Of a stretch of DNA of 64,000 nt, positions 5,561 through 56,697 are shown piece after piece. How positions within the stretch are numbered: position 1 is the stretch's first letter; each line of letters begins with the position of its first letter. The position numbers and the translations under genes were made by a program. The notes beneath the pieces are model-generated. The model was given only the letters and a program-made list of their open reading frames with translations, was not told where the DNA came from and did not search any database. The DNA comes from a virus. Location of the stretch: IMG/VR virus record IMGVR_UViG_3300012931_000018, positions 23,946 to 87,945 of that record. One strand, written 5' to 3'.

Positions 5561-5947
5561 ATGAAGAACACATTATTGAAAATATTAATTGTGATTGGCA
5601 TAATAGTGCTAATAATATCAGCATCATTTACTACATTGAATGGTCAGACAATTTTGTGTACTAAACATTATCATCTAAGTACGGCAACTTGTACAGTTCC
5701 ATTTATGGATGATACTTTATATGTAACCGGAAAATATTTAACAGCTGAATTTGAATTTATATTAATAGAAATACAATTCCATGGTCTTGAATATTTGGAT
5801 GCTTTACAAAAAACCAAAATAGGTGTTTGGCATATATCAGAATATATTGATGAACAAATTAGATTTATTTATAATAGATGGATTGCTAAAAAAAGATTGC
5901 AAACAATCGATGATGATTTTTGGCAAGATGTAAATAAAAAAAGGTGA
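5561..5947 (+). CDS. Hypothetical protein with N-terminal membrane anchor
   Basis: 128 residues. One hydrophobic helix (residues ~7-25) is followed by a soluble domain with three cysteines near its start and a charged helical end. It follows the ACACAGGGGAATAAA leader and abuts the fucose synthase gene. Function unknown. Confidence 0.65.
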   Translation: MKNTLLKILIVIGIIVLIISASFTTLNGQTILCTKHYHLSTATCTVPFMDDTLYVTGKYLTAEFEFILIEIQFHGLEYLDALQKTKIGVWHISEYIDEQIRFIYNRWIAKKRLQTIDDDFWQDVNKKR

Positions 5948-5952
5948 ATAAA

Positions 5953-6945
5953 ATGGAAAAGAAAAATATTTTAATAACAGGGCATAATGGATTGGTGGGA
6001 TCTGCTTTAGTAAAAATGTTTAAGAACGATGATAGAGAATATAATGTCATTGTTGCACCCAGAAGCAGTTTAGACTTAAAAAGTGAACAAAGTACCAGAA
6101 AATGGTTTGATCAAAGAATTAAAGAAGGCGTTAAGATTGATATGGTAATTTGTTGTGCTGGAAAGGTTGGTGGTATAGTTGCAAATTCTAAATATCCAGC
6201 TGAATTTTTATATGATAATGCTTTGATTGGATTGAATACAATTTCTGCTGCTTATATTTATAACGTAGATAAATTAATTTACTTAGGGAGTAGTTGTGTT
6301 TATCCAAAAACTTTAAAAATTATTGATGAAAATAAATTATTATCCAGTAAACTTGAACCTTCGAATGAAGGATATGCTATTGCTAAAATAATGAACATAA
6401 AACTTGTTGAAAAATTTCATATTGAATATGGTAAAAATTATTATTCAGTAATGCCTTGTAATGTTTATGGATATGGTGATAATTATAATCTTGAAAGTTC
6501 TCATGTTATTCCAGCATTGATTAGAAAATTGCATGAAGCTAAAATGAATAACAATACTGAATTTAATGTTATGGGTAATCCTGAAACACGACGTGAATTT
6601 ACATTTTCAGATACATTGGCTGCTAAGATATATAATTTGATTGAATTTGTTAGTGCAGATTATTTAGATATAGTGTATGGTACTAATTTATTGAACCTTG
6701 GTAGTGGTGTGGAATATACGATGGATAAATTAGTGAAAACAATTTCTAAGGTTGTTGGCTATAAAGGAAAAATAAATTGGACTAATACTGGTGCTGGAGT
6801 TGAAAGAAAATTAATGGACTCGAAAAAACAAAAAGAAATTTTTTCATCATTTGGTTGTTATAATGATTTATATGAACCAGAATTAAGTGAAGGAATAAAA
6901 GTAACATATAATGATTTTTTAACTAATGAAGGATTAAGAAAATAA
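5953..6945 (+). CDS. fcl: GDP-L-fucose synthase (epimerase/reductase)
   Basis: About 330 residues from ATG 5953; an in-frame GTG at 5944 is less likely because AAGGTG is the SD. The N-terminal Rossmann motif is GHNGLVGSA. Family signatures follow in order: GKVGGIVAN, LGSSCVYP (Ser of the triad), LEPSNEGYAIAK (Tyr-x3-Lys), SVMPCNVYG and SHVIPALIRK. This matches extended SDR enzymes of the WcaG/Fcl type, which turn GDP-4-keto-6-deoxymannose into GDP-L-fucose with NADPH. Its substrate would come from the dehydratase at 8206-9258. Together they imply a phage-encoded supply of GDP-fucose. Confidence 0.9.
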   Translation: MEKKNILITGHNGLVGSALVKMFKNDDREYNVIVAPRSSLDLKSEQSTRKWFDQRIKEGVKIDMVICCAGKVGGIVANSKYPAEFLYDNALIGLNTISAAYIYNVDKLIYLGSSCVYPKTLKIIDENKLLSSKLEPSNEGYAIAKIMNIKLVEKFHIEYGKNYYSVMPCNVYGYGDNYNLESSHVIPALIRKLHEAKMNNNTEFNVMGNPETRREFTFSDTLAAKIYNLIEFVSADYLDIVYGTNLLNLGSGVEYTMDKLVKTISKVVGYKGKINWTNTGAGVERKLMDSKKQKEIFSSFGCYNDLYEPELSEGIKVTYNDFLTNEGLRK

Positions 6946-8179: not shown

Positions 8180-8205
8180 AAATTAATTTGATGAGGTTAT
8201 ATAAT

Positions 8206-9258
8206 ATGATAGATAAAAATAAACAAGTTGCATTGATAACTGGAATAACCGGGCAAGATGGAAGTTACCTTGCTGAACTTCTTTTAGAGAAAGAATATAT
8301 TGTTCATGGTGTGATTAGAAGGTCAAGCAGTTTTAATACTGAAAGGATTGATCATCTTTATAATGATCCAACATTGTTAGATAAAAAATTGTTTCTTCAT
8401 TATGGTGATTTATCGGACAATAGTGTTTGTGAATTAATAAAAGAAATTAGACCGGATGAAATTTATAATCTTGCTGCTCAAAGTCATGTTGCTGTAAGTT
8501 TTAAGATTCCTGAATATACTTCTGACATTAATTATATGGGTGTAGTTAGAATGTTGGAATGTATTAGGCATCTTGATTATCGTGTAAAGTTTTATCAGGC
8601 AAGCACAAGTGAAATGTTCGGCAAAAGTCTTCCACCACAAAATGAATCAACGTTATTTCAGCCACAAAGCCCATATGCTGTTAGTAAAGTTGCTGCCCAT
8701 AACATATGCACTAATTATAGAAATAGTTACAAGTTATTTATATGCTGTGGTATTTTATTTAATCATGAAAGCCCAAGACGTAATGAAACATTTGTAACAA
8801 GAAAAATTGTTAATGGTTTATGTAAGGTAAAACTTGGATTGCAAGACTGTGTAGTGTTAGGGAATATATTTGCTCAAAGAGATTGGGGTTGGGCACCTGA
8901 TTATGTAGAAGCAATGTGGCTGATGATGCAAAGAAGTTTGCCTGATGACTATGTTATTGCTACAGGGGCAAGTTATACTGTGAAAGAGTTTATAGAAGCG
9001 GTGTTGCTTTGTCTTAATATTGAATATGAATGGTTGGAACATACAGGTGGTTCATTTCATGTACTGGATAAAAAAGATAGTAAAATTATTCTTTCAACTG
9101 ATAGTATTAAATATATTAGACCATCTGATGTTGATTGGTTGTGTGGAGATTATACAGCAGCAAAAAGATTATTAGGGTGGAAACCAACTAAATATATGGA
9201 TCAAATAATAGATGAAATGGTCAAATCAGATTTTGAAAAATTAAATAGAGGACAATAA
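8206..9258 (+). CDS. gmd: GDP-mannose 4,6-dehydratase
   Basis: 350 residues from ATG 8206; upstream starts at 8188/8191 lie on the ATGAGGT SD. Family signatures: TGITGQDGSYLAELLLEK (NADP-binding Rossmann), RRSSSFNTERIDHLY, YNLAAQSHV, QASTSEMFG, PYAVSKVAAH (Tyr-x3-Lys) and FNHESPRRNETFVTRKI. It converts GDP-mannose to GDP-4-keto-6-deoxymannose in the cytoplasm, the first step to GDP-L-fucose. The usual GNLDAKRDWGHA segment reads GNIFAQRDWGWA here, an unusual change near the active site that could affect substrate handling. Pairs with the fucose synthase at 5953-6945. Confidence 0.93.
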   Translation: MIDKNKQVALITGITGQDGSYLAELLLEKEYIVHGVIRRSSSFNTERIDHLYNDPTLLDKKLFLHYGDLSDNSVCELIKEIRPDEIYNLAAQSHVAVSFKIPEYTSDINYMGVVRMLECIRHLDYRVKFYQASTSEMFGKSLPPQNESTLFQPQSPYAVSKVAAHNICTNYRNSYKLFICCGILFNHESPRRNETFVTRKIVNGLCKVKLGLQDCVVLGNIFAQRDWGWAPDYVEAMWLMMQRSLPDDYVIATGASYTVKEFIEAVLLCLNIEYEWLEHTGGSFHVLDKKDSKIILSTDSIKYIRPSDVDWLCGDYTAAKRLLGWKPTKYMDQIIDEMVKSDFEKLNRGQ

Positions 9259-24606: not shown

Positions 24607-26730
24607 ATGGACACAGGAAAAAAAATTCTTAATGAAAAAAAAGAACATCAAACTAAAACTATATCCATAAGAAGTGATGAAAAATATATTCATCTAACTA
24701 TTAATAAAGAATTTTTAACCACAAAAAATAATTTTGAAATTTATCAAAGCATAATGCTTGCAACATCTCCAATATTTACTAATGAAAATAAAGTCTTATT
24801 TAATAATAGAATAACTGCGGTTCCAAATAAATCTATTACCAAAAAATTATTCCCTCATATAGCATTTTTTATAGAAAATAAATCTCATTATACAGGTGGT
24901 AGATATTCAATGTGGCAACAAGCTGTATTGCTTTCTAATGTTGCTGATGTCACTATTGTAACAAATGCAATTCCAAAATTTAGAGATGATTTTAAACCAT
25001 ATGAAACTGATTTTTTAAAAATCATTGTTAACAATAATTATTTGATTGATAATGAAAATAATGAATTTGATTTGATAATAGGCGTTCCGATAATAGCTGG
25101 TGAATTTGCAACTCAATATGCAAAGAAATTTAATTTACCATTATATCTTCAATTATTTGAAAGTCCAAATTGGGTCAAACAATTTAGAGATTCATCACCT
25201 GATGCTACTGAAGAATTTTGGTCAGGATATAAAGAATGTTTAAAACAAGCTGATAAAATTTTAGTTCCAAGTATTGAAAGTTCAAATTGGTTAAGAAAAT
25301 GGGATGAAAAATTTAATGATATTCCTATATCTGTTATTTATCCTTGCATAAATCAATTTGCTGCTGATTATGTTAAACTTAATTATGGAAGTAAAAGATG
25401 TAAAAATGAAAAAGTTAATCTTGTGATGTCATCAAGAATGACTGATTTCAAATCACCTATGGCAATAATAAAAAAACTCAACAAAGATAAATATGCTTTT
25501 CATTTTATAGGAAAAGTTTGGGATATAACTAATAAAGGTTTGGAAGAACTGAAAAATAAAGGATATGATATAACAGTACATGGAATGATTAATGATGTGG
25601 AAAAATTCAAAATATTAGCAGATTGTGATATCCTTATCCACCCGTCTATTTTTGAAGGTTATGGTATGCCACCGCTTGAGGGTTTTTACGCTAATAGAAG
25701 CGTTATAGCGTATGATTTACCCGTTTTGAGGGAAATATACGGGGATAATATAATTTACGCTAAATTAGGTGATGCTAATGATTTTGCAAATAAAATAGAA
25801 AAAGAAAGTGAAAAAATAAAAAATAATGGATGTTATTATGCTGATAGCAATGTAATTAAATATGCAACAGTCAAATATAATTTAAGTTGTTTAATGACTG
25901 AACTTGATATTCCTAAAATAACTGCCGGTATGATTGTTTATAATGGAATGGATTATATAAAGCAATCAATAGGTTCTATTTATAAAAATTTATTTGAATT
26001 GATTATTGTTGAAGGTGCTGTTAAAGGTTATACTGATGAAAATAATTATACAAGTGCTGATGGAACTATTAAATATTTAGAAGAATCTTTATTAAATGAT
26101 CATATTCATAAAATAAATCTTATCAAGAAAGATAAATTTTGGGAAAATAAAATTGAAATGCAAAATCATATTGCTGAAAATGTAAATGGTGATTTTTATC
26201 TTAAACTTGATCATGATGAAATTTGGAAACCGGAAACTTTAATTGAAGCTATTAATGAATTTTATAAAGATAAAAATTTAATAATGCTTAAAATGCCATT
26301 TTATCATTTTTGGCTTAACTTCAAAACAATAGCTAAAGATGCTGGTGGTAAATGGTCAACTTGCCACCCAAGACTTTGGAGATGGAAAAAAAGTTATAAG
26401 CATACAATTAGTTTTAATCATTTCATAGATACTGAAAATGGTTTACCAGTTATATCTCCATCAAAAGATTTTATTGGAGATCGAATTTATCATTTTGGTT
26501 ATGTAAGAAAATTAAAAATATTGCAAAATAAAATTCATTATTATTCAAATCGTGGAATTGAAAAATTTGTTCAAGATACAGTTACAGATTATTCTGATGG
26601 TAAACCTACTCAACCAACACAAAAAGTAGAATCATGGGCAATTGATTTTGAAGGAACACTTCCAAAAATATTAGATAATCACCCATATAAATCTTTATTA
26701 GACATTAGAAAATATCAAGATGAGGAATAG
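24607..26730 (+). CDS. Bifunctional glycosyltransferase: GT4-like N-half, GT2-like C-half
   Basis: 707 residues. Residues ~90-420 look like a GT-B, family-4 retaining transferase: HPSIFEGYGMPPLEG gives the E-x7-E signature. Residues ~435-690 look like a GT-A, family-2 type enzyme: AGMIVYNGMDYIKQSIGSI, then LKLDHDEIW with an acidic DHD motif. Such enzymes build surface polysaccharide from nucleotide sugars in the cytoplasm. The leader is ACACAGGAAAATAAA. The gene ends in TAG directly followed by the next ATG. Sugar specificity cannot be read. Confidence 0.75.
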   Translation: MDTGKKILNEKKEHQTKTISIRSDEKYIHLTINKEFLTTKNNFEIYQSIMLATSPIFTNENKVLFNNRITAVPNKSITKKLFPHIAFFIENKSHYTGGRYSMWQQAVLLSNVADVTIVTNAIPKFRDDFKPYETDFLKIIVNNNYLIDNENNEFDLIIGVPIIAGEFATQYAKKFNLPLYLQLFESPNWVKQFRDSSPDATEEFWSGYKECLKQADKILVPSIESSNWLRKWDEKFNDIPISVIYPCINQFAADYVKLNYGSKRCKNEKVNLVMSSRMTDFKSPMAIIKKLNKDKYAFHFIGKVWDITNKGLEELKNKGYDITVHGMINDVEKFKILADCDILIHPSIFEGYGMPPLEGFYANRSVIAYDLPVLREIYGDNIIYAKLGDANDFANKIEKESEKIKNNGCYYADSNVIKYATVKYNLSCLMTELDIPKITAGMIVYNGMDYIKQSIGSIYKNLFELIIVEGAVKGYTDENNYTSADGTIKYLEESLLNDHIHKINLIKKDKFWENKIEMQNHIAENVNGDFYLKLDHDEIWKPETLIEAINEFYKDKNLIMLKMPFYHFWLNFKTIAKDAGGKWSTCHPRLWRWKKSYKHTISFNHFIDTENGLPVISPSKDFIGDRIYHFGYVRKLKILQNKIHYYSNRGIEKFVQDTVTDYSDGKPTQPTQKVESWAIDFEGTLPKILDNHPYKSLLDIRKYQDEE

Positions 26731-28419
26731 ATGGATAACTTAAATTCAAAAAATATTCTTAATGGAAGACCTAAATATATTGAAAATATTGAAAATGATA
26801 TTGAATCGTTTACAGGCAATATAAATTTATTCATTTCATGGTATAATGAAAAAGATGAAAATAGAAAAAAAGAATTTATTAATTGTTTGTTAAAAAATAT
26901 TTCAAATCGATATATAAACAAAATATATTTATTTGTTGAAAATAATTGTGAATGTGATTTTATAGAAGATAAAATTGAAAAAATATTTATCGATAAAAGA
27001 ATAACATATTTAGATGCCTTTACATTTATAAATTCAATAACAAATAAAAATGATATTAATATTTTATCTAATACTGATATTTATTTCGATGAAACTATAA
27101 AATTTGTATTTAACAAAATTGATTCTAATAAAGTTTTTTGTTTAACAAGATGGGATATATTATCTAATGGTAAAATTGAATTTCACAATAGGCGTGATAG
27201 TCAAGATGCTTGGATATTTTATGGGAGTATAAAAAATAATATTCAATGCAATTTTAATTTAGGAATTCCTGGATGTGATAATAAGATAGCATATGAATTA
27301 GAAAAATCTGGATATTCTATTTTTAATCCAAGTTTATCTATTAAAATATTGCATATCCATACAAGTAATATAAGAAATTATTCAAATAACACTCCAAAAC
27401 TTTCAAGACCTTATCAGTTTATTTCACCTTGTACAATTGATTCTATAAAAAGTAATAGAAAAAAGATATTGCATATAGGTCTGAATTTTGAAGGTCAACA
27501 AACTTTGACTAAAGCACTTAAAATGATGGGTGAATATATTTATATAAATTGGAGAAAAAAAGTTGATGAAATAGGTATTATAAATTTTAATAAATTTTTA
27601 ATTCAAGCTATTAGAAATATAGAACCTGATTTTGTTTTTATGCAAATACAAACGCCGGATATAATATTACCAGCATCAATAATCAAAATAAATGAATTTA
27701 ATAAAGTTCCAATATTAAATTGGAATGGAGATATCAGAAAACAAACTCCATTATGGATGTTAGAATTGGCAAAAGTAAGTGATAATATTCATACAGCTTT
27801 TACAAATGGTAGGGATATTAAAACATTCAAAATGAATGGCATTAATAATGTTCATTATATACAAATTGGTTTCGAAGAAAATATTTATAATGCTGATGTT
27901 AAGCCAATGCAAAATGTACCAAAAATAATTTTTACTGGTTCATATTATGGTGATCATTTTCCTTTATCTGAATTAAGATTAGAAATGTTTAATAAATTGA
28001 AAAGTTCATTTGGTTCTAATTTTATGGCATATGGTGGAAATTGGAAAAAAATGGGTGGTAACGATTCTTTGACTCCAAAAGATACTGCATCATTATATAA
28101 AGGTGCAGAAATAATAATATCCGTTAATAATATAAATGCTTTCAGATATACATCGGATAGATTGCTTAATATACTTGGAACAAATTCATTTTGTTTGGCT
28201 AATTATGTGGATGGTTTGAATTTGGATTTTCAAAATAATAAGCATTTAGTTTATTGGAATAATATTGATGAACTTATTGATTTGATAAAAGAATATTCTA
28301 AAAGTGAAAATAAAAATAAAAGACAAGAAATTGCATACAATGGTATGACTGAAGTTTGGTCAAATCATAGATGGCTTAATCGTATTGAACAAATGAAAAC
28401 TGAAATATTGAAATGGTAA
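26731..28419 (+). CDS. Two-domain glycosyltransferase (GT-A-like plus CgeB-like)
   Basis: 562 residues. Residues ~25-230 resemble a GT-A fold with an SNTDIYFDE motif. Residues ~245-560 resemble CgeB/GT-B-type transferases (KKILHIGLNFEGQQTL, then GSYYGDHFPLSELRLEMF and a C-terminal SDRLLNILGTNSF). It starts right after the previous stop, so the two are translated together. Likely adds one or more sugars to a glycan; donor and acceptor unknown. Confidence 0.65.
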   Translation: MDNLNSKNILNGRPKYIENIENDIESFTGNINLFISWYNEKDENRKKEFINCLLKNISNRYINKIYLFVENNCECDFIEDKIEKIFIDKRITYLDAFTFINSITNKNDINILSNTDIYFDETIKFVFNKIDSNKVFCLTRWDILSNGKIEFHNRRDSQDAWIFYGSIKNNIQCNFNLGIPGCDNKIAYELEKSGYSIFNPSLSIKILHIHTSNIRNYSNNTPKLSRPYQFISPCTIDSIKSNRKKILHIGLNFEGQQTLTKALKMMGEYIYINWRKKVDEIGIINFNKFLIQAIRNIEPDFVFMQIQTPDIILPASIIKINEFNKVPILNWNGDIRKQTPLWMLELAKVSDNIHTAFTNGRDIKTFKMNGINNVHYIQIGFEENIYNADVKPMQNVPKIIFTGSYYGDHFPLSELRLEMFNKLKSSFGSNFMAYGGNWKKMGGNDSLTPKDTASLYKGAEIIISVNNINAFRYTSDRLLNILGTNSFCLANYVDGLNLDFQNNKHLVYWNNIDELIDLIKEYSKSENKNKRQEIAYNGMTEVWSNHRWLNRIEQMKTEILKW

Positions 28420-37205: not shown

Positions 37206-40200
37206 TGAAAACTGTATCAACTACATTATTAAATAATTTTAATAAAAGTGAAGTTAGGATTATCGATAAAGTTTATATTTATCAGCAATTTAATAATCCT
37301 ATATTAACAGCATCTACTAATATTATAACATTAAATGGAGATGCTTCATTTTTATTATCTGATGATTCAATAGTTTTTCCGTTAAAATCATTAACTGATG
37401 AATATATTATTGAGTCGGTAATATATGATGAAGAAACAGATATAACTGAAATAGTTATTACTGACATTACATTAGATAGTACATATATTGGCAATTATTT
37501 AGCTAAGGTTGTAAATATAACAGAGAAATTGACAAAAAAATCAGTTGATAGTGTTAAGCAAACTATTGAAGGAAAATATTTTAATGAATTTGATTCAGGA
37601 AGTATGACTGCTGTTGTTAGTAATGATGCTGGATATTTTAGAAATAAAAATAAAACAGGTTTATTAGATGGTGATTATACTTTTTGGATAAAATATATTA
37701 TGAAGTTTCAAGGGTATGATGATGAATTTATATATTTTGCAGGGATAATTGAAATATCTGATTGTGAACCGGATTTATATAATAAAACTGTTTCTATTAT
37801 TGCTTATGGTCATAGTTATGAATTAGAAAGATATCCGGCTTTTTATTTAAGTGATGACGAAAATACAATATTGCCTAAGATAAATGGAATAAAAATTATT
37901 GGTTATACTCCATCTGATGATTCTGAAGAAGGTATTAAAGAGATATCATTCAAACCTTTTGGAACTTCTGATTTTGGTAATATCACTGTTGATTCAATTA
38001 ATGCTAATGGAACTAAAACTATTAGAATTCTTGAATTCAAATATCCAAATTTATTTAAATGGGATAATGGCAGTTGGGTTGCAATAACTACATTACCAAC
38101 TGATGGTATTCAAAAATTAACAGGTAAAGATGGTTCAAGTGCACAAGTTATTGTAGGTGATGGAGATGAACTATATGATTTTCCTTTGAAAGATACTGAA
38201 ATGTGGGTGATTGATAATAATATTCCTAATTGGGTATTAGATAATATTTATAAATCTGAAAGTGAGGATAATACACTTTCACAGGGCAAACCTACTATAA
38301 CATTTGATAATGGTACTGAAGAAATGTTGAGAATATATTTTCAATATATATTAAGAAAAGTTTCCAGTACTTATACTGATATTACACAAGATATAAATGA
38401 TCAAATAGAAAATGAAACAATTTTCAGTAGTGCTGCTGATGAATTGATAATAGTTTCCCCTAATAGATTTTGGGGAATAGATTTTAAATTTAATACCTTA
38501 TTATCTACTGTTGCTGAATTTACTATTCATTATAGTATAGGTGGACAATTATGGAGTGCTGATTTTAGTTCATTAATAACTGATGAGACTTTAGGATTTA
38601 CTAATCACGGTAAAATAAAATGGAATGAAGCTGGCAATTGGTCATCTAATAATATAACTATTGACACCAGTACAAATTATTCTGGATATATGATTAAAAT
38701 AGTAATTACAAGTATAACTGGAACATCAATCGCAAATTCTATAAAAAGAATATTAAGAGCACAAGGTGAAAATGGTGACTTCATAGATTTTGAAGCTGAT
38801 ATAAATCAAATGAATATTTCAGATACTACTGATGATGTAATTATTAAAAAAGATGATAATGGTGATTGGAAATATGCTGTTTGGTATTATTCAGCAACAC
38901 CAAATAAAATGCTTACAAAATTTAAAGAGATTGCTAAGTATGATGATGAAGATGTTATAAATGATAGTATGGAATATAATTTATCAGAACCTACTTTTAA
39001 TATATACGGAAGACAACCAAGATATTCTTTGTATGAATATCCAACAGCATTTTATATAGATTTTATTAATGGATATATTTATATTGCAAATAAATTAGAA
39101 ATTTATAGAAATAAAATGGATGGTACTGATTCATGGGTAAAATTATTTGATCTAAATGGAACAGGTCTTCAAGATACAATAACACAATATATGCATATTT
39201 TTAGTATAGATATATATGGTGATAATGTTCATGTATTAGTTAGTAATGGTTTATTCAGAAATGGGATGACTATATATAAATTTACATATAATATAGTCAC
39301 AAGTATTATAACTGATGATGGATATAATACGAAGCAATATAATGGAGAAGTAACATCGAGATATGGTCAATCTATTTTAGAAGGCATAAATAAAAATAGA
39401 TATATTGGGTGGTTTTCTACAAGAACTCCGGCTGGTGAAAATCTTTGTATTGCTTATCCTCAATTAAATGAATGTGATGAATGGACAAGAACAGTGGCAA
39501 TGTATCCAACGAGTGATGAGAAAACAAATACTGTTGGATATCCAGAATATTATTTTGATAATACAGCAGATCCACAAACTTTATTATTTAATTCTAAAAT
39601 GGGTTTTTACGCTGTTCAAAATAATACATCACAAACTGGAGTATATCCTGATATTTATAATTTGACAATTAGATTTGGTCAAAAAGGAATAATTGCCAAA
39701 AGAACAATATCTGATGTTATATATAATTATATGTTTACTAAAACAGAATTTGCTGGTGAAGAAGTGTATTGGCAATTTTTATGTTTAGAAGATGTTTTAA
39801 AATTTATGAATTCTAATGTATTTACTTTTATAAGGCACATAGCTGGTCATATACCAATATCAATGGCAGGAAGTTTAGAAACAATTTCATATTGGTCGTG
39901 GACAGAATGGAAAGATTTTGATGGTGATGTAAAGTCATATTCTTATATAAGTAAAATAGATGGTTTGATGGATTGGAAATATATAGCATCATTAGATAGC
40001 AGTCAAGTTCAAGTTGGGTTTAATATGGCTGATTCTATTAATGAAGGAACACAAGTTATTGATTTTATTACAACTAATAATTATTATACAGTATTTGGTC
40101 ATAATAAAAAATTAAAAAATGTTCTTATTAATTTATCAATTGAAGATGATACAAAATTATTTGAAATATATTATTGGGATGGAGCACAATGGAAAAGGAA

Positions 40201-51337: not shown

Positions 51338-52819
51338 ATGTCTGAAAATATTCAAACATATGATATTGATAGTGAACGTATTGCCTTAAAGGCATTAATA
51401 CAAAAACCTAATTTTGCAAAGCAAGTAATTCTATACAATTTACTTTTTGATGATCATTTTGTAGATTTATTCCACAAAGATATTCTCAATGTGTTTTATA
51501 AATTTTATCGGAAATTTGGTCAATCACCTACATCTAAACAACTCAAACATTATCTTCCAAAGTATATGACATATGTGGATAAGTTCAAAACAAAACAGCA
51601 TCAAATGAAAATTTGGTTAGGTGCTGTAGAACGGCTTTATAATGATATGTCGGAAAATGAAATAAAAAATATTGATGCTTCGGTTAGTATATTGGATGAA
51701 TTGAGAAAAGCAAGAGTTATTCAAAGAGTAATAATAAAAAGTACAAAGAGTTTTGAAACAGGGAATTATGATCGTGTGATAGAAAACTTTTCCGAAGCAA
51801 TTATTGATTCTCGAAAAGTGGAGAATATGATAACTGAAGGAAATATAGTTGATGATTTAGATTATCATATTCAACTTGATAAAAGAATTAAAAGTGGTGA
51901 AGATCGCCCTATATCAACTCATATATTTGGAATATTCGAAGATCAAAAAACTAAAAAAATTAAAAAAGCAGATTTAGATTCTTTATTAACGGGTGGATTT
52001 TATCCTGGTGAAGTTGTATTGTTTGTAGGTGAAGTAAATATAGGAAAGAGTTTTACATTAATGGAAACAGCATATTGTACAAGTCGTTTCGAAAAGAAAA
52101 ATTCAATTCTTTATACCATTGAAATGAATAAGACTAAATGTCAAAGACGTATATATTCACGGGCAACTGGAATACCATATCGAAAATTTAAGATGGGTGA
52201 ATTGACTAAGGATGATAAAGAAAAACTTTATCGTTGGAAAGAAGATTGGAAAAAGAATTGTGGAATATTGGAAGTTGTTAGTTTTGATAAAGGGGCAACT
52301 GTTGGTGATATTGAAAATAAAACGAAAGATATTGAGAATAAGTATGGTGAAGAATTTGAATTAACAGCAATAGATTATTTGAATGACTTAAAACCTATGG
52401 GTAGGTTTCAAAATTCAAAAAGTTGGGATGCTATTGGTGAGATAAGTTGGGACTTGGCAAACTTTTCAAAATTTCATCACAATCATAAAGGCATATCTAC
52501 TATAACAGCGGTACAAAAGAAAACAATTATGTATGGGAAATCTGAAACTAAAGCAGGGAGCGGAGCAATGTCTGCTTTACCGGAGCATCATGCTACAGTT
52601 GCTATTGGATTAGGTCAAAACGATGAAGATAAATTCTATGGGTTAAATGGCAGAATCCGTTATGATATTTTTAAGAGTAGAGATGATAAAAAAGATATTT
52701 CGTTTTATACATTCCCTAATTTCAAGGTTAGCCGGATACATTCAGAGAAAAGTATGCGTTATCATTATCAAGATCAACTTGAAGAATTAAAAAATGAAGA
52801 ATCGCGGGGAAATGAATAA
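51338..52819 (+). CDS. dnaB: Replicative DNA helicase (DnaB-type)
   Basis: 493 residues. N-terminal helical domain starts IDSERIALKALIQKP. RecA-like core: Walker A GEVNIGKS (231-238), Walker B ELTAIDYLNDLKP, and STITAVQKK with GAGSMSALPEHHA-type sensor loop (reads AGSGAMSALPEH). It unwinds DNA at the phage fork and works with the primase two genes down. SD TTGAGGT. Confidence 0.88.
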   Translation: MSENIQTYDIDSERIALKALIQKPNFAKQVILYNLLFDDHFVDLFHKDILNVFYKFYRKFGQSPTSKQLKHYLPKYMTYVDKFKTKQHQMKIWLGAVERLYNDMSENEIKNIDASVSILDELRKARVIQRVIIKSTKSFETGNYDRVIENFSEAIIDSRKVENMITEGNIVDDLDYHIQLDKRIKSGEDRPISTHIFGIFEDQKTKKIKKADLDSLLTGGFYPGEVVLFVGEVNIGKSFTLMETAYCTSRFEKKNSILYTIEMNKTKCQRRIYSRATGIPYRKFKMGELTKDDKEKLYRWKEDWKKNCGILEVVSFDKGATVGDIENKTKDIENKYGEEFELTAIDYLNDLKPMGRFQNSKSWDAIGEISWDLANFSKFHHNHKGISTITAVQKKTIMYGKSETKAGSGAMSALPEHHATVAIGLGQNDEDKFYGLNGRIRYDIFKSRDDKKDISFYTFPNFKVSRIHSEKSMRYHYQDQLEELKNEESRGNE

Positions 52820-52963: not shown

Positions 52964-53986
52964 ATGAGAAATCTAAATGATATTGTAATAAATGAAGATA
53001 TAGATAATGATGTATTGGAAATAAAAAATAAATTACCAGATGATTTTGATGTTAAAGATTATTTATTAAAAAAAGGAATCGAGTTCAAAGAGCATGAATC
53101 AAGTTCTACTGGAACTTGGTTACAAATGTGTTGTCCATTTCCAGAACATGACGATAAACGTCCAAGTTTTAGTATTAATGTAGAATCTAAATCTTGGAAT
53201 TGTTATGTGTGTGGAAGTGGAAATTGGTTTCAACTTGCTGAAAAAATGGGATGGGAAGATTGGAAAAGTGATCAAGTTTTAATTAATACTATTAGTAATG
53301 AAGATTGGAAAAAGACTAAAAGAAATTTTTCAAAAAGATTAGAAGGTGGTTGCTATGTAGCAATAAAACCTAAAATGAAAAATATAAAACAAGATGATAA
53401 ATATTTTGAATATTTGAAGAATAGAAAAATCGAAAGTAGTATAGATATTTTTGAAATAAAAAGAGGCTCTATATGTTATGATGAAGATTATAATTATAAT
53501 TATAGAAATCGTATTTTAATTCCGGTTCATAATTTAGATGAAACTAAAATATTGTGGTATGAAGGTCGGCACATTGAAGACAAATTCAGTCCGAAATATT
53601 ATAGACCTAATGGTGTTGAAAAAACTAAAGTTATTTTTAATTATCACCGAGTGAAACAATCTGGTTCAAAGAAAGTAATAGTTGTTGAAGGGATAATAGA
53701 TGCAATTACTTTATGGATGTGGGGATATCCGGCGGTATGTATATTTGGATCATCAATAAGTCCTGATCAAATGGAATTGTTAATGTGTTTTGATGAAATT
53801 TATATTTGTTTAGATATTGATAGAGCGGGGATAAAAGGTTTTTTGAAATTCAAAGAATTATGTACAGGATGTGGTGCTTTATTAAAAAGAATAATTATTC
53901 CAAGAGGTAAGGATGCTAACAAATTAAAGAAATTGCAATTTGATGAATTTTATAATCGTTCTAAAAGTATTGATAAAAATAAATAA
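52964..53986 (+). CDS. dnaG: DNA primase (DnaG-type)
   Basis: 340 residues. Zinc-binding domain: CCPFPEHDDKRPSFSINV, then WNCYVCGSGNWFQLAEKMG (Cys/His/Cys/Cys). TOPRIM fold: VIVVEGIIDAITLWMWGYPA with the catalytic Glu, then ICLDIDRAG with the acidic DxD. Lacks an obvious C-terminal helicase-binding domain. It makes RNA primers for the DnaB-type helicase encoded upstream. A terminator follows. Confidence 0.9.
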   Translation: MRNLNDIVINEDIDNDVLEIKNKLPDDFDVKDYLLKKGIEFKEHESSSTGTWLQMCCPFPEHDDKRPSFSINVESKSWNCYVCGSGNWFQLAEKMGWEDWKSDQVLINTISNEDWKKTKRNFSKRLEGGCYVAIKPKMKNIKQDDKYFEYLKNRKIESSIDIFEIKRGSICYDEDYNYNYRNRILIPVHNLDETKILWYEGRHIEDKFSPKYYRPNGVEKTKVIFNYHRVKQSGSKKVIVVEGIIDAITLWMWGYPAVCIFGSSISPDQMELLMCFDEIYICLDIDRAGIKGFLKFKELCTGCGALLKRIIIPRGKDANKLKKLQFDEFYNRSKSIDKNK

Positions 53987-54003
53987 ATTGAGCAGTATAA
54001 TAT

Positions 54004-54026
54004 AAATCAGATATAATATCTGATTT
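54004..54026 (+). terminator. Terminator after primase
   Basis: AAATCAGATAT / ATATCTGATTT form an 11-bp palindromic pair around one central base, followed by a long T-rich run (54034-54049). Marks the end of the replication operon. Confidence 0.8.
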
Positions 54027-54088
54027 AATGAAATTTTTTTTATTTTTTATTAGGAATCTTAATAATTTTTTTATAAGTTAGTAGTAGA

Positions 54089-54648
54089 AATTATTGACAG
54101 ACTGGCTGATTGAATCCTAACTTAAACCGGATTGTTGCTGTTAAAGAAAGAAATAACTGAGCATTAAACTTTCTTAACAGTGTATAAACAAGACTTTAAT
54201 ATTGAGCCAAAAAAATACAGAAAAAGTCTTTTAGAAAAGTTAGGTTCTCTGATGGAGACAAAAACACTACTTTCCAAATCAAAGTAAAACTCATTCTTTT
54301 AATAGTACAAACCTTTCGAAAAAATAACCAAAAAATATCTAACCAAATTCAAAATAACAAAATGCTAACGAAGCAGTTATCTTTGAACCACTTCTTAAAA
54401 TACTGAATGAGAAACTAAGTTAATGTGATACCAATGAGGTGATTGACTTAGAAAAATTTTAAGAGTAATATCGGGATGGAGATGCCTAACTGATACTTAA
54501 AAACTTTGATGGTAGAAATGAAAAAGTGAAAGATCAAGAAACTATGATCACTTCAGGTTCTGAAATAAGAACGGATTTTTGGACAGCGATTTTTTAATTA
54601 AAAGGTCGAAACAAGGAAAGATAAGATTGTGATCTTATCTTTCCTTGT
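54089..54648 (+). ncRNA. Candidate large structured noncoding RNA
   Basis: No convincing gene lies in 53987-54717. By eye, stems appear throughout. Closing helix: AATTA 54089/TAATT 54595, GCTG 54105/CAGC 54584, GAATCC 54112/GGATTT 54573. Inner helices: CCTAACTT 54116/AAGTTAGG 54237 (sharing two bases with the previous); CTGTTAAAGAAAG 54138/CTTTCTTAACAG 54169; AAGACTTT 54190/AAAGTCTT 54223; CTCATTC+TTTTAA 54290/TTAAAA 54395+GAATGAG 54405; CAAA-ATAAC/GTTAT-c-TTTG around TGCT-AACGA-AGCA (54350-54387); CTAAGTTAAT 54415/ATTGACTTAG 54442; TTTTAAG 54457/CTTAAAA 54496. A 17-bp hairpin (54611-54648) ends it. Size and style recall large ornate phage RNAs such as ROOL and GOLLD; identity not shown. Confidence 0.6.
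54611..54648 (+). terminator. 17-bp perfect hairpin ending the RNA region
   Basis: ACAAGGAAAGATAAGAT (54611-54627), loop TGTG, ATCTTATCTTTCCTTGT (54632-54648). The longest perfect hairpin in the window. Weak U tail (CTTATAATT), so it may also protect an RNA 3' end. Confidence 0.8.
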
Positions 54649-54717
54649 CTTATAATTAAGTTATAACCGATGAGACCAAAAAACAAATTAAACAATCAAT
54701 CAAATGAGGAAAACAAA

Positions 54718-55194
54718 ATGAGACAAGCATTAAATAAATATTATTTTGATAAGAATCTTGAATTTGGTTCTGCTATCTATGATAGAAATTTAATTAATGA
54801 ATTAAAAAATGAAATTATAATATTTGAAAAGAATAAAGAAACTGCAAGAACAAAAATGCTTAATTTCATCGATGCTATTGAAAAAGGTATGAAAGTTATT
54901 AATTGTTCCATAAAATTTTTAAATGAAGTTGATACGGGAATTGATGGACTTTATAAAAATTCAGCTGGTCAAATAAATTTTAGACAATGTAGAGATGATG
55001 TTGTGATAACAGGTAATTTGAAATATTTAGGTAAGCAATTAAAACCAATTGATAATTATCATAAGGCAATAGAAAGATTAAGTAGACTTGAAAAGAAATT
55101 TAACGAAACAGCTGTTGGTGCACGTTTATCTTTGAATCCGTTTTCTATAAAGGATGATATTGAAAATATTTCATTCACTATTTATATCAAATGA
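54718..55194 (+). CDS. Hypothetical protein
   Basis: 158 residues from ATG 54718 (SD ATGAGGA); ATG 54670 is an alternative but has no SD. Helical N-half, mixed C-half, no known motif. First gene after the structured RNA region. Confidence 0.6.
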   Translation: MRQALNKYYFDKNLEFGSAIYDRNLINELKNEIIIFEKNKETARTKMLNFIDAIEKGMKVINCSIKFLNEVDTGIDGLYKNSAGQINFRQCRDDVVITGNLKYLGKQLKPIDNYHKAIERLSRLEKKFNETAVGARLSLNPFSIKDDIENISFTIYIK

Positions 55195-55996: not shown

Positions 55997-56028
55997 TTAA
56001 ATTAACTAATAATTAGATGAGGTGTAAA

Positions 56029-56697
56029 ATGAAATTAGCTGAAATAATAAAATTAAAAGAATGCCCATCTTGGCTTAAAAGTAAATCAATAAAAGTTGAA
56101 AATGAAAATATTGAAATTATTGATGGCATAGTAACATGGGAAGATGGTATATGGAAAGGTGGTATATGGGAATATGGTATATGGGAATATGGTATATGGG
56201 AATATGGTACATGGAAAGGTGGTATATGGAAAGGTGGTATATGGGAATATGGTATATGGGAATATGGTACATGGAAAGGTGGTATATGGAAAGGTGGTAT
56301 ATGGGAATATGGTATATGGAAAGATGGTATATGGGAATATGGTACATGGAAAGGTGGTATATGGAAAGGTGGTACATGGAAAGGTGGTACATGGAAAGAT
56401 GGTACATGGAAAGATGGTACATGGAAAGGTGGTATATGGAAAGGTGGTACATGGAAAGATGGTACATGGAAAGATGGTTTTATTCAAATTGGCAAATGCA
56501 AATGGTTAGTTTTTTATAATTATAAAAAACAAATTGTTAAAATAGGTTGCAAAGAAAACTCAATTGCAAATTGGGTTGACTGGTTTAATTCAGATGATGA
56601 ATTTGAAACCAAAAGGAATACAAAAGAATTTTCTGAAATTTATAATAGTTTTCTGCTTGCAAAATTAGCAATTGAACTTGAATTAACAATTAGATGA
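56029..56697 (+). CDS. Protein with 23 tandem W-x-x-G-[I/T] pentapeptide repeats
   Basis: 222 residues from ATG 56029 (SD ATGAGGTG). Residues ~36-150 are 23 units of W-K/E-G/D/Y-G-I/T, then a ~72-residue unique end (FIQIGKCKWLVFYN...). The fixed Trp and Gly suggest a regular beta-solenoid or stacked-sheet structure. Variation among units is limited to three positions. Function unknown. Confidence 0.75.
   Translation: MKLAEIIKLKECPSWLKSKSIKVENENIEIIDGIVTWEDGIWKGGIWEYGIWEYGIWEYGTWKGGIWKGGIWEYGIWEYGTWKGGIWKGGIWEYGIWKDGIWEYGTWKGGIWKGGTWKGGTWKDGTWKDGTWKGGIWKGGTWKDGTWKDGFIQIGKCKWLVFYNYKKQIVKIGCKENSIANWVDWFNSDDEFETKRNTKEFSEIYNSFLLAKLAIELELTIR
56134..56478 (+). repeat. 15-bp coding minisatellite, 23 units
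   Basis: Units of the type GGTATATGGGAATAT, GGTATATGGAAAGGT or GGTACATGGAAAGAT repeat exactly every 15 bp for 345 bp. Because 15 is a multiple of 3, other frames on both strands also stay open. Confidence 0.95.

Follow-up and report, generated by a model that had tools for sequence, protein, structure and literature searches.

What does an uncultured phage encode in the stretch that follows its primase gene, where no protein can be read? The window analysed here, 64,000 nucleotides long, corresponds to positions 23946-87945 of a virus record of 87,945 bases, in which all genes called with a simple gene caller lie on the + strand. A preliminary description of this DNA had placed at 54089-54648 a candidate large, multi-stem noncoding RNA, located in the biggest gene-free gap. 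As discussed below, the segment probably gives rise to an untranslated transcript some 520 bases long, while most of the elaborate structure ascribed to it was not sustained.

The gap downstream of the primase gene

The gene-free gap spans 53987-54717, between the stop of the primase gene at 53986 and the next likely start at 54718, and inspection of its open reading frames revealed no usable frame. Its gene-free character was thus confirmed; in size, however, it ranks second within the record, since the gap at 1840-2737 of the window is larger. That largest gap (898 nt) contains near-repeats such as TTGTTGAGTAATAA and AAAAATTCTCTACTTTT.

Upstream of the gap lie a DnaB-like helicase gene (51338-52819) and, as immediate neighbour, a DnaG-like primase gene (52964-53986, + strand), which was recognized by the Pfam families Zn_ribbon_DnaG and Toprim_2 and by the PHROG category DNA primase. 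The primase operon is followed by a putative terminator at 54003-54041 (+ strand), formed by the 12-bp palindrome TAAATCAGATAT/ATATCTGATTTA with a T-run after it, within a left block (53987-54088) that has a G+C content of only about 16%. On the other side, the downstream gene (54718-55194, + strand) has no family match, and the GAGG located at 54706 led us to set its start at 54718 instead of 54670. No homologue of this gene was found in the three relatives searched. No tRNA genes were detected in the window or in the remainder of the record, and the window gave no hit to an Rfam family either.

Other features of the window are a protein at 56017-56697 that consists mostly of tandem WKGGIWEYG-like repeats, in a region open in several frames, and sugar-nucleotide and glycosyltransferase-like phage genes at 5944-6945, 8188-9258 and 24607-28419, among which, judged by eye, there are presumably a GDP-fucose synthase-like and a GDP-mannose dehydratase-like gene.

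Folding of the segment

The complete 560-nt segment folded better than shuffled sequences (z -3.5). This result depends on a single element: when the perfect 17-bp hairpin at 54611-54648 was left out, z was only -1.7 to -1.8, and the minus strand gave about the same value. Coding controls of equal length gave z values from -1.3 to +1.5. Beyond its end hairpin, the gap folds only weakly better than chance. The hairpin itself (+ strand, loop TGTG) is present exactly as had been described and is the likely 3' end or a processing site of the RNA. It has no clean T-run.

Two further local hairpins were observed on the + strand, one near the 5' side (GCTGTTAAAGAAAG / CTTTCTTAACAGT, 54137-54181, z -1.9) and another that is individually strong (CTAAGTTAAT / ATTGACTTAG, 54415-54451, z -4.1), around which local windows favour the + strand. 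The long-range helix that would join both ends of the segment (54089-54117 with 54573-54599) was rejected: its pairing probability never rose above 0.17, and it would use promoter DNA lying upstream of the likely start of the RNA. Similarly, GATGGAGA does occur at 54251 and 54475, with a third copy at 38159, but its interpretation as a conserved loop motif was discarded, because repeated 8-mers in the gap are no commoner than expected by chance (9 against 12.1 +/- 4.1 in shuffles).

A promoter-like site and the predicted transcript

The left end of the segment carries a promoter-like site on the + strand, TTGACA-N18-TAACTT (54094-54123), followed by AAACCGG, which would place a start near 54130. 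On the + strand of the 88-kb record, TTGACA-N16..19-TANNNT has this single occurrence. The same pattern appears in 3.9% of shuffled gaps and a stricter form in 1.6%, figures to be read considering that the tests on the promoter and on boxA were made after inspection of the gap and that the site was chosen post hoc. If this promoter is used, the RNA would begin near 54130 and the 5' arm of the proposed outer helix would be promoter DNA, which is the better interpretation of that arm.

The rRNA genes gathered to test the boxA resemblance treated below came from genomes of the class to which a primase relative, located in a contig of a Chloroherpeton MAG, had pointed. A similar promoter form is present in 16 of the 19 rRNA leaders of this candidate host class, which was guessed through one distant relative, and the leader L091 has the same -10, TAACTT, as the window site. 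The TTGACA promoter is absent from the gaps of both phage relatives described below (G001 and G006).

From the promoter-like site and the terminal hairpin, and considering that the region has no usable frame, we infer an untranslated transcript of about 520 nt (54130-54648, + strand).

Gaps in related phages and boxA elements

The relatives were found by a terminase search followed by alignments of two or three proteins; single-protein searches had confirmed none. A primase profile was also run on 396 genomes from the candidate phylum and discarded, as the matches listed lay in frames of 555-722 residues and look like host DnaG. Relative G001 (73 kb) has a primase about 38% identical to that of the window, and relative G006 (58 kb) one about 43% identical. 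In both of them the primase gene is followed by a stretch without a convincing gene, of 627 nt in G006, where it is the largest gap, and of up to 760 nt in G001, where it is broken by two short, doubtful frames from the simple gene caller. In the more distant relatives (L037 and L045) the space after the primase gene is only about 110-170 nt.

The sequences of the three gaps are highly diverged, and their number is too low for covariation analysis. A MAFFT alignment of the DNA of two gaps was uninformative, and local alignment against shuffles was used instead; the similarity was weak and collinear (p 0.03 for window and G006, 0.02 for G001 and G006, and 0.17 for window and G001). The longest common words, 14 bases between the window and G006 and 17 bases between G001 and G006, both exceed those of 60 shuffles. 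The 14-mer (54442-54455) begins with the 3' arm of the hairpin at 54415-54451, and it pairs with other segments in G006 than in the window, so that it does not point to a helix conserved between these two phages. The gaps of G001 and G006 fold no better than shuffles. An exact 21-mer search of viral contigs gave no matches, and when the gap was compared with phage records by blastn, only short AT-rich hits were returned. The gap of G001 also includes a tRNA-like piece (L008, 3133-3198), similar in its 3' half to tRNA-Met genes of phages; it is shorter than a tRNA and was not called by ARAGORN.

The gaps of G001 and G006 have in common the word AAAGTTCTTTGA, and each contains exactly one copy of GTTCTTTGA (shuffle frequency 0.004 in each case), which resembles the boxA antitermination element. 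Such elements have been described upstream of long noncoding RNAs, for example 16S rRNA and CRISPR arrays (PMC7862264). In the host class examined, the boxA core TTCTTTGA was present in 15 of the 19 rRNA leaders, mostly 77-137 nt upstream of the 16S gene, and had no copies in 16 kb of control sequence. One leader (L066, 1100-1500) has two boxA copies, GTTCTTTGAAA, located 280 and 112 nt before the 16S gene. An exact boxA was not found in the gap of the window, where the nearest copy, GTTCTCTGA at 54244-54252 (+ strand), is one mismatch off and is matched in 19% of shuffles, which is not significant; a second partial match, TCTTTGAA, lies at 54380-54387 (+ strand).

Taken together, the promoter-like site, the terminal hairpin and the same-place gaps with boxA in two relatives make a noncoding transcript plausible.

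Comparison with known RNA families

The likeness to the large ornate RNAs of phages, ROOL and GOLLD, was not supported by the comparison, given the lack of an Rfam match, the weak folding and the shuffle-like folding of the relatives' gaps. When the gap was scanned with cmscan against all 4227 Rfam families, nothing reached the gathering threshold and no credible match appeared at E 10, ROOL, GOLLD and OLE not being listed either. A search with the ROOL model at E 10 found nothing in the record of the window (G000) or in G001 and G006; since 14 control genomes were silent too, the cmscan of the gap at E 10 is the firmer test. Rfam scans of the relatives produced no match at the gathering threshold, and those that appeared at E 5 were weak and at chance level. 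Because no model matched, we do not file the gap under ROOL, GOLLD or OLE.

ROOL (RF03087) resembles the predicted RNA in being phage-encoded and intergenic and in size (a model of 574 positions against about 520-560 nt). However, the record of the window is unmatched by the model and has no nearby tRNA genes, and the gap, with a core that folds at z of about -1.8, shows little sign of an extensive stable fold, whereas the structure of ROOL is elaborate, covarying and pseudoknotted, and this RNA is often found near tRNA islands (PMC12286853), a proximity that is a tendency and not a strict criterion. GOLLD, often near tRNA islands as well (PMC12286853), is likewise a large noncoding RNA encoded by phages, and the tRNA-like piece in the gap of G001 recalls it; nevertheless, the gap RNA would be shorter than a typical GOLLD of 800 nt, with a weak fold and no Rfam match. 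A further comparison is with the boxA-controlled untranslated RNAs (rRNA leaders and CRISPR arrays), with which the gap shares a promoter of the rRNA-leader type and, in two relatives, an exact boxA, although it is not rRNA, no CRISPR-like repeats were found in it and the boxA of the window is imperfect. Antitermination sites of the lambda nut type combine boxA with hairpins in an untranslated leader. The gaps recall this combination, but that of the window exceeds 500 nt and neither a boxB nor an N-like protein was identified.

Alternative explanations and proposed transcription unit

The antitermination sites lead to the question of whether the gap is instead a long leader that regulates the operon downstream, comprising a promoter, an RNA of the antitermination type and the 17-bp hairpin, which would serve for attenuation or processing. 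Such a leader would be on the same strand as the operon, with the hairpin about 60 nt ahead of the ribosome-binding site of the gene that follows, and the boxA of the relatives could belong to a nut-like site. No boxB-like element was identified, however, and no homologue of the downstream gene of the window turned up in the searched relatives, so that the gap travels with the primase and not with the gene that it would regulate; we consider this explanation unlikely. The association with the primase and helicase genes, directly downstream of which the gap is located, would fit a replication origin, in which the AT-rich left block would unwind and a promoter-made untranslated RNA would act as R-loop primer. 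The low G+C content of 53987-54088 agrees with such a role, as does a position that is kept in the relatives while the sequence mostly is not. On the contrary, boxA is not expected at an origin, no iterons or direct-repeat array were found in the gap, and the GC skew has one sign throughout the window, this last being weak evidence where all genes are on one strand. Phage origins without iterons exist. On balance, an origin also seems rather improbable.

That part of the gap is the remnant of a decayed gene appears very unlikely. The region 54340-54600 has a weak three-base periodicity, with G in the first position, in a frame that is shared with the downstream gene and interrupted only by TAA. 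But its chi of 16.5-16.8 falls short of 19.5, the 10th percentile for real genes, its p of 0.003-0.01 refers to a segment picked after looking, and the read-through frames matched nothing in Pfam, PHROG or phage proteins, nor in the relatives. A coding reading with TAA/TAG as glutamine was rejected: a weak periodicity was seen, but no homologue.

The explanation that we tentatively favour, at slightly short of an even chance, is that the gap constitutes a small transcription unit, a host-promoter-driven untranslated RNA of one phage lineage. The promoter-like site sits just after the primase terminator, which supports this explanation; against it weigh the 2-4% of shuffled gaps that would hold such a promoter match, the imperfect boxA of the window, the weak folding beyond the end hairpin, similar on both strands, and the absence of the TTGACA promoter from the gaps of the relatives. 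According to this model, the primase operon would stop at its own terminator (54003-54041), and a host sigma-70-type promoter (54094-54123), similar to those of the host rRNA operons, would start an RNA near 54130. This RNA would open with a hairpin, and its remainder would consist of a few local hairpins and of long single-stranded parts rich in A; it would terminate at the 17-bp hairpin (54611-54648) or be processed close to it. In the relatives, the exact rRNA-type boxA would let host Nus factors keep the polymerase going on untranslated RNA. The RNA itself may be the product, for example by regulating the machinery for transcription or replication of either host or phage. We infer transcription, start, end and function alike from sequence features.

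A broader proposal, which we put forward as a long shot, is that these gaps represent a new class of long noncoding phage RNA beside the primase gene, with a host rRNA-type promoter, boxA/Nus protection, and position and short motifs conserved across diverged phages of one lineage. If the gap is transcribed, it would be a case of a phage untranslated RNA borrowing elements that control ribosomal RNA in the host, namely the promoter form and boxA. In that case these elements would provide a simple signature with which to search for long phage RNAs whose homologues are too diverged to be detected by covariance models.
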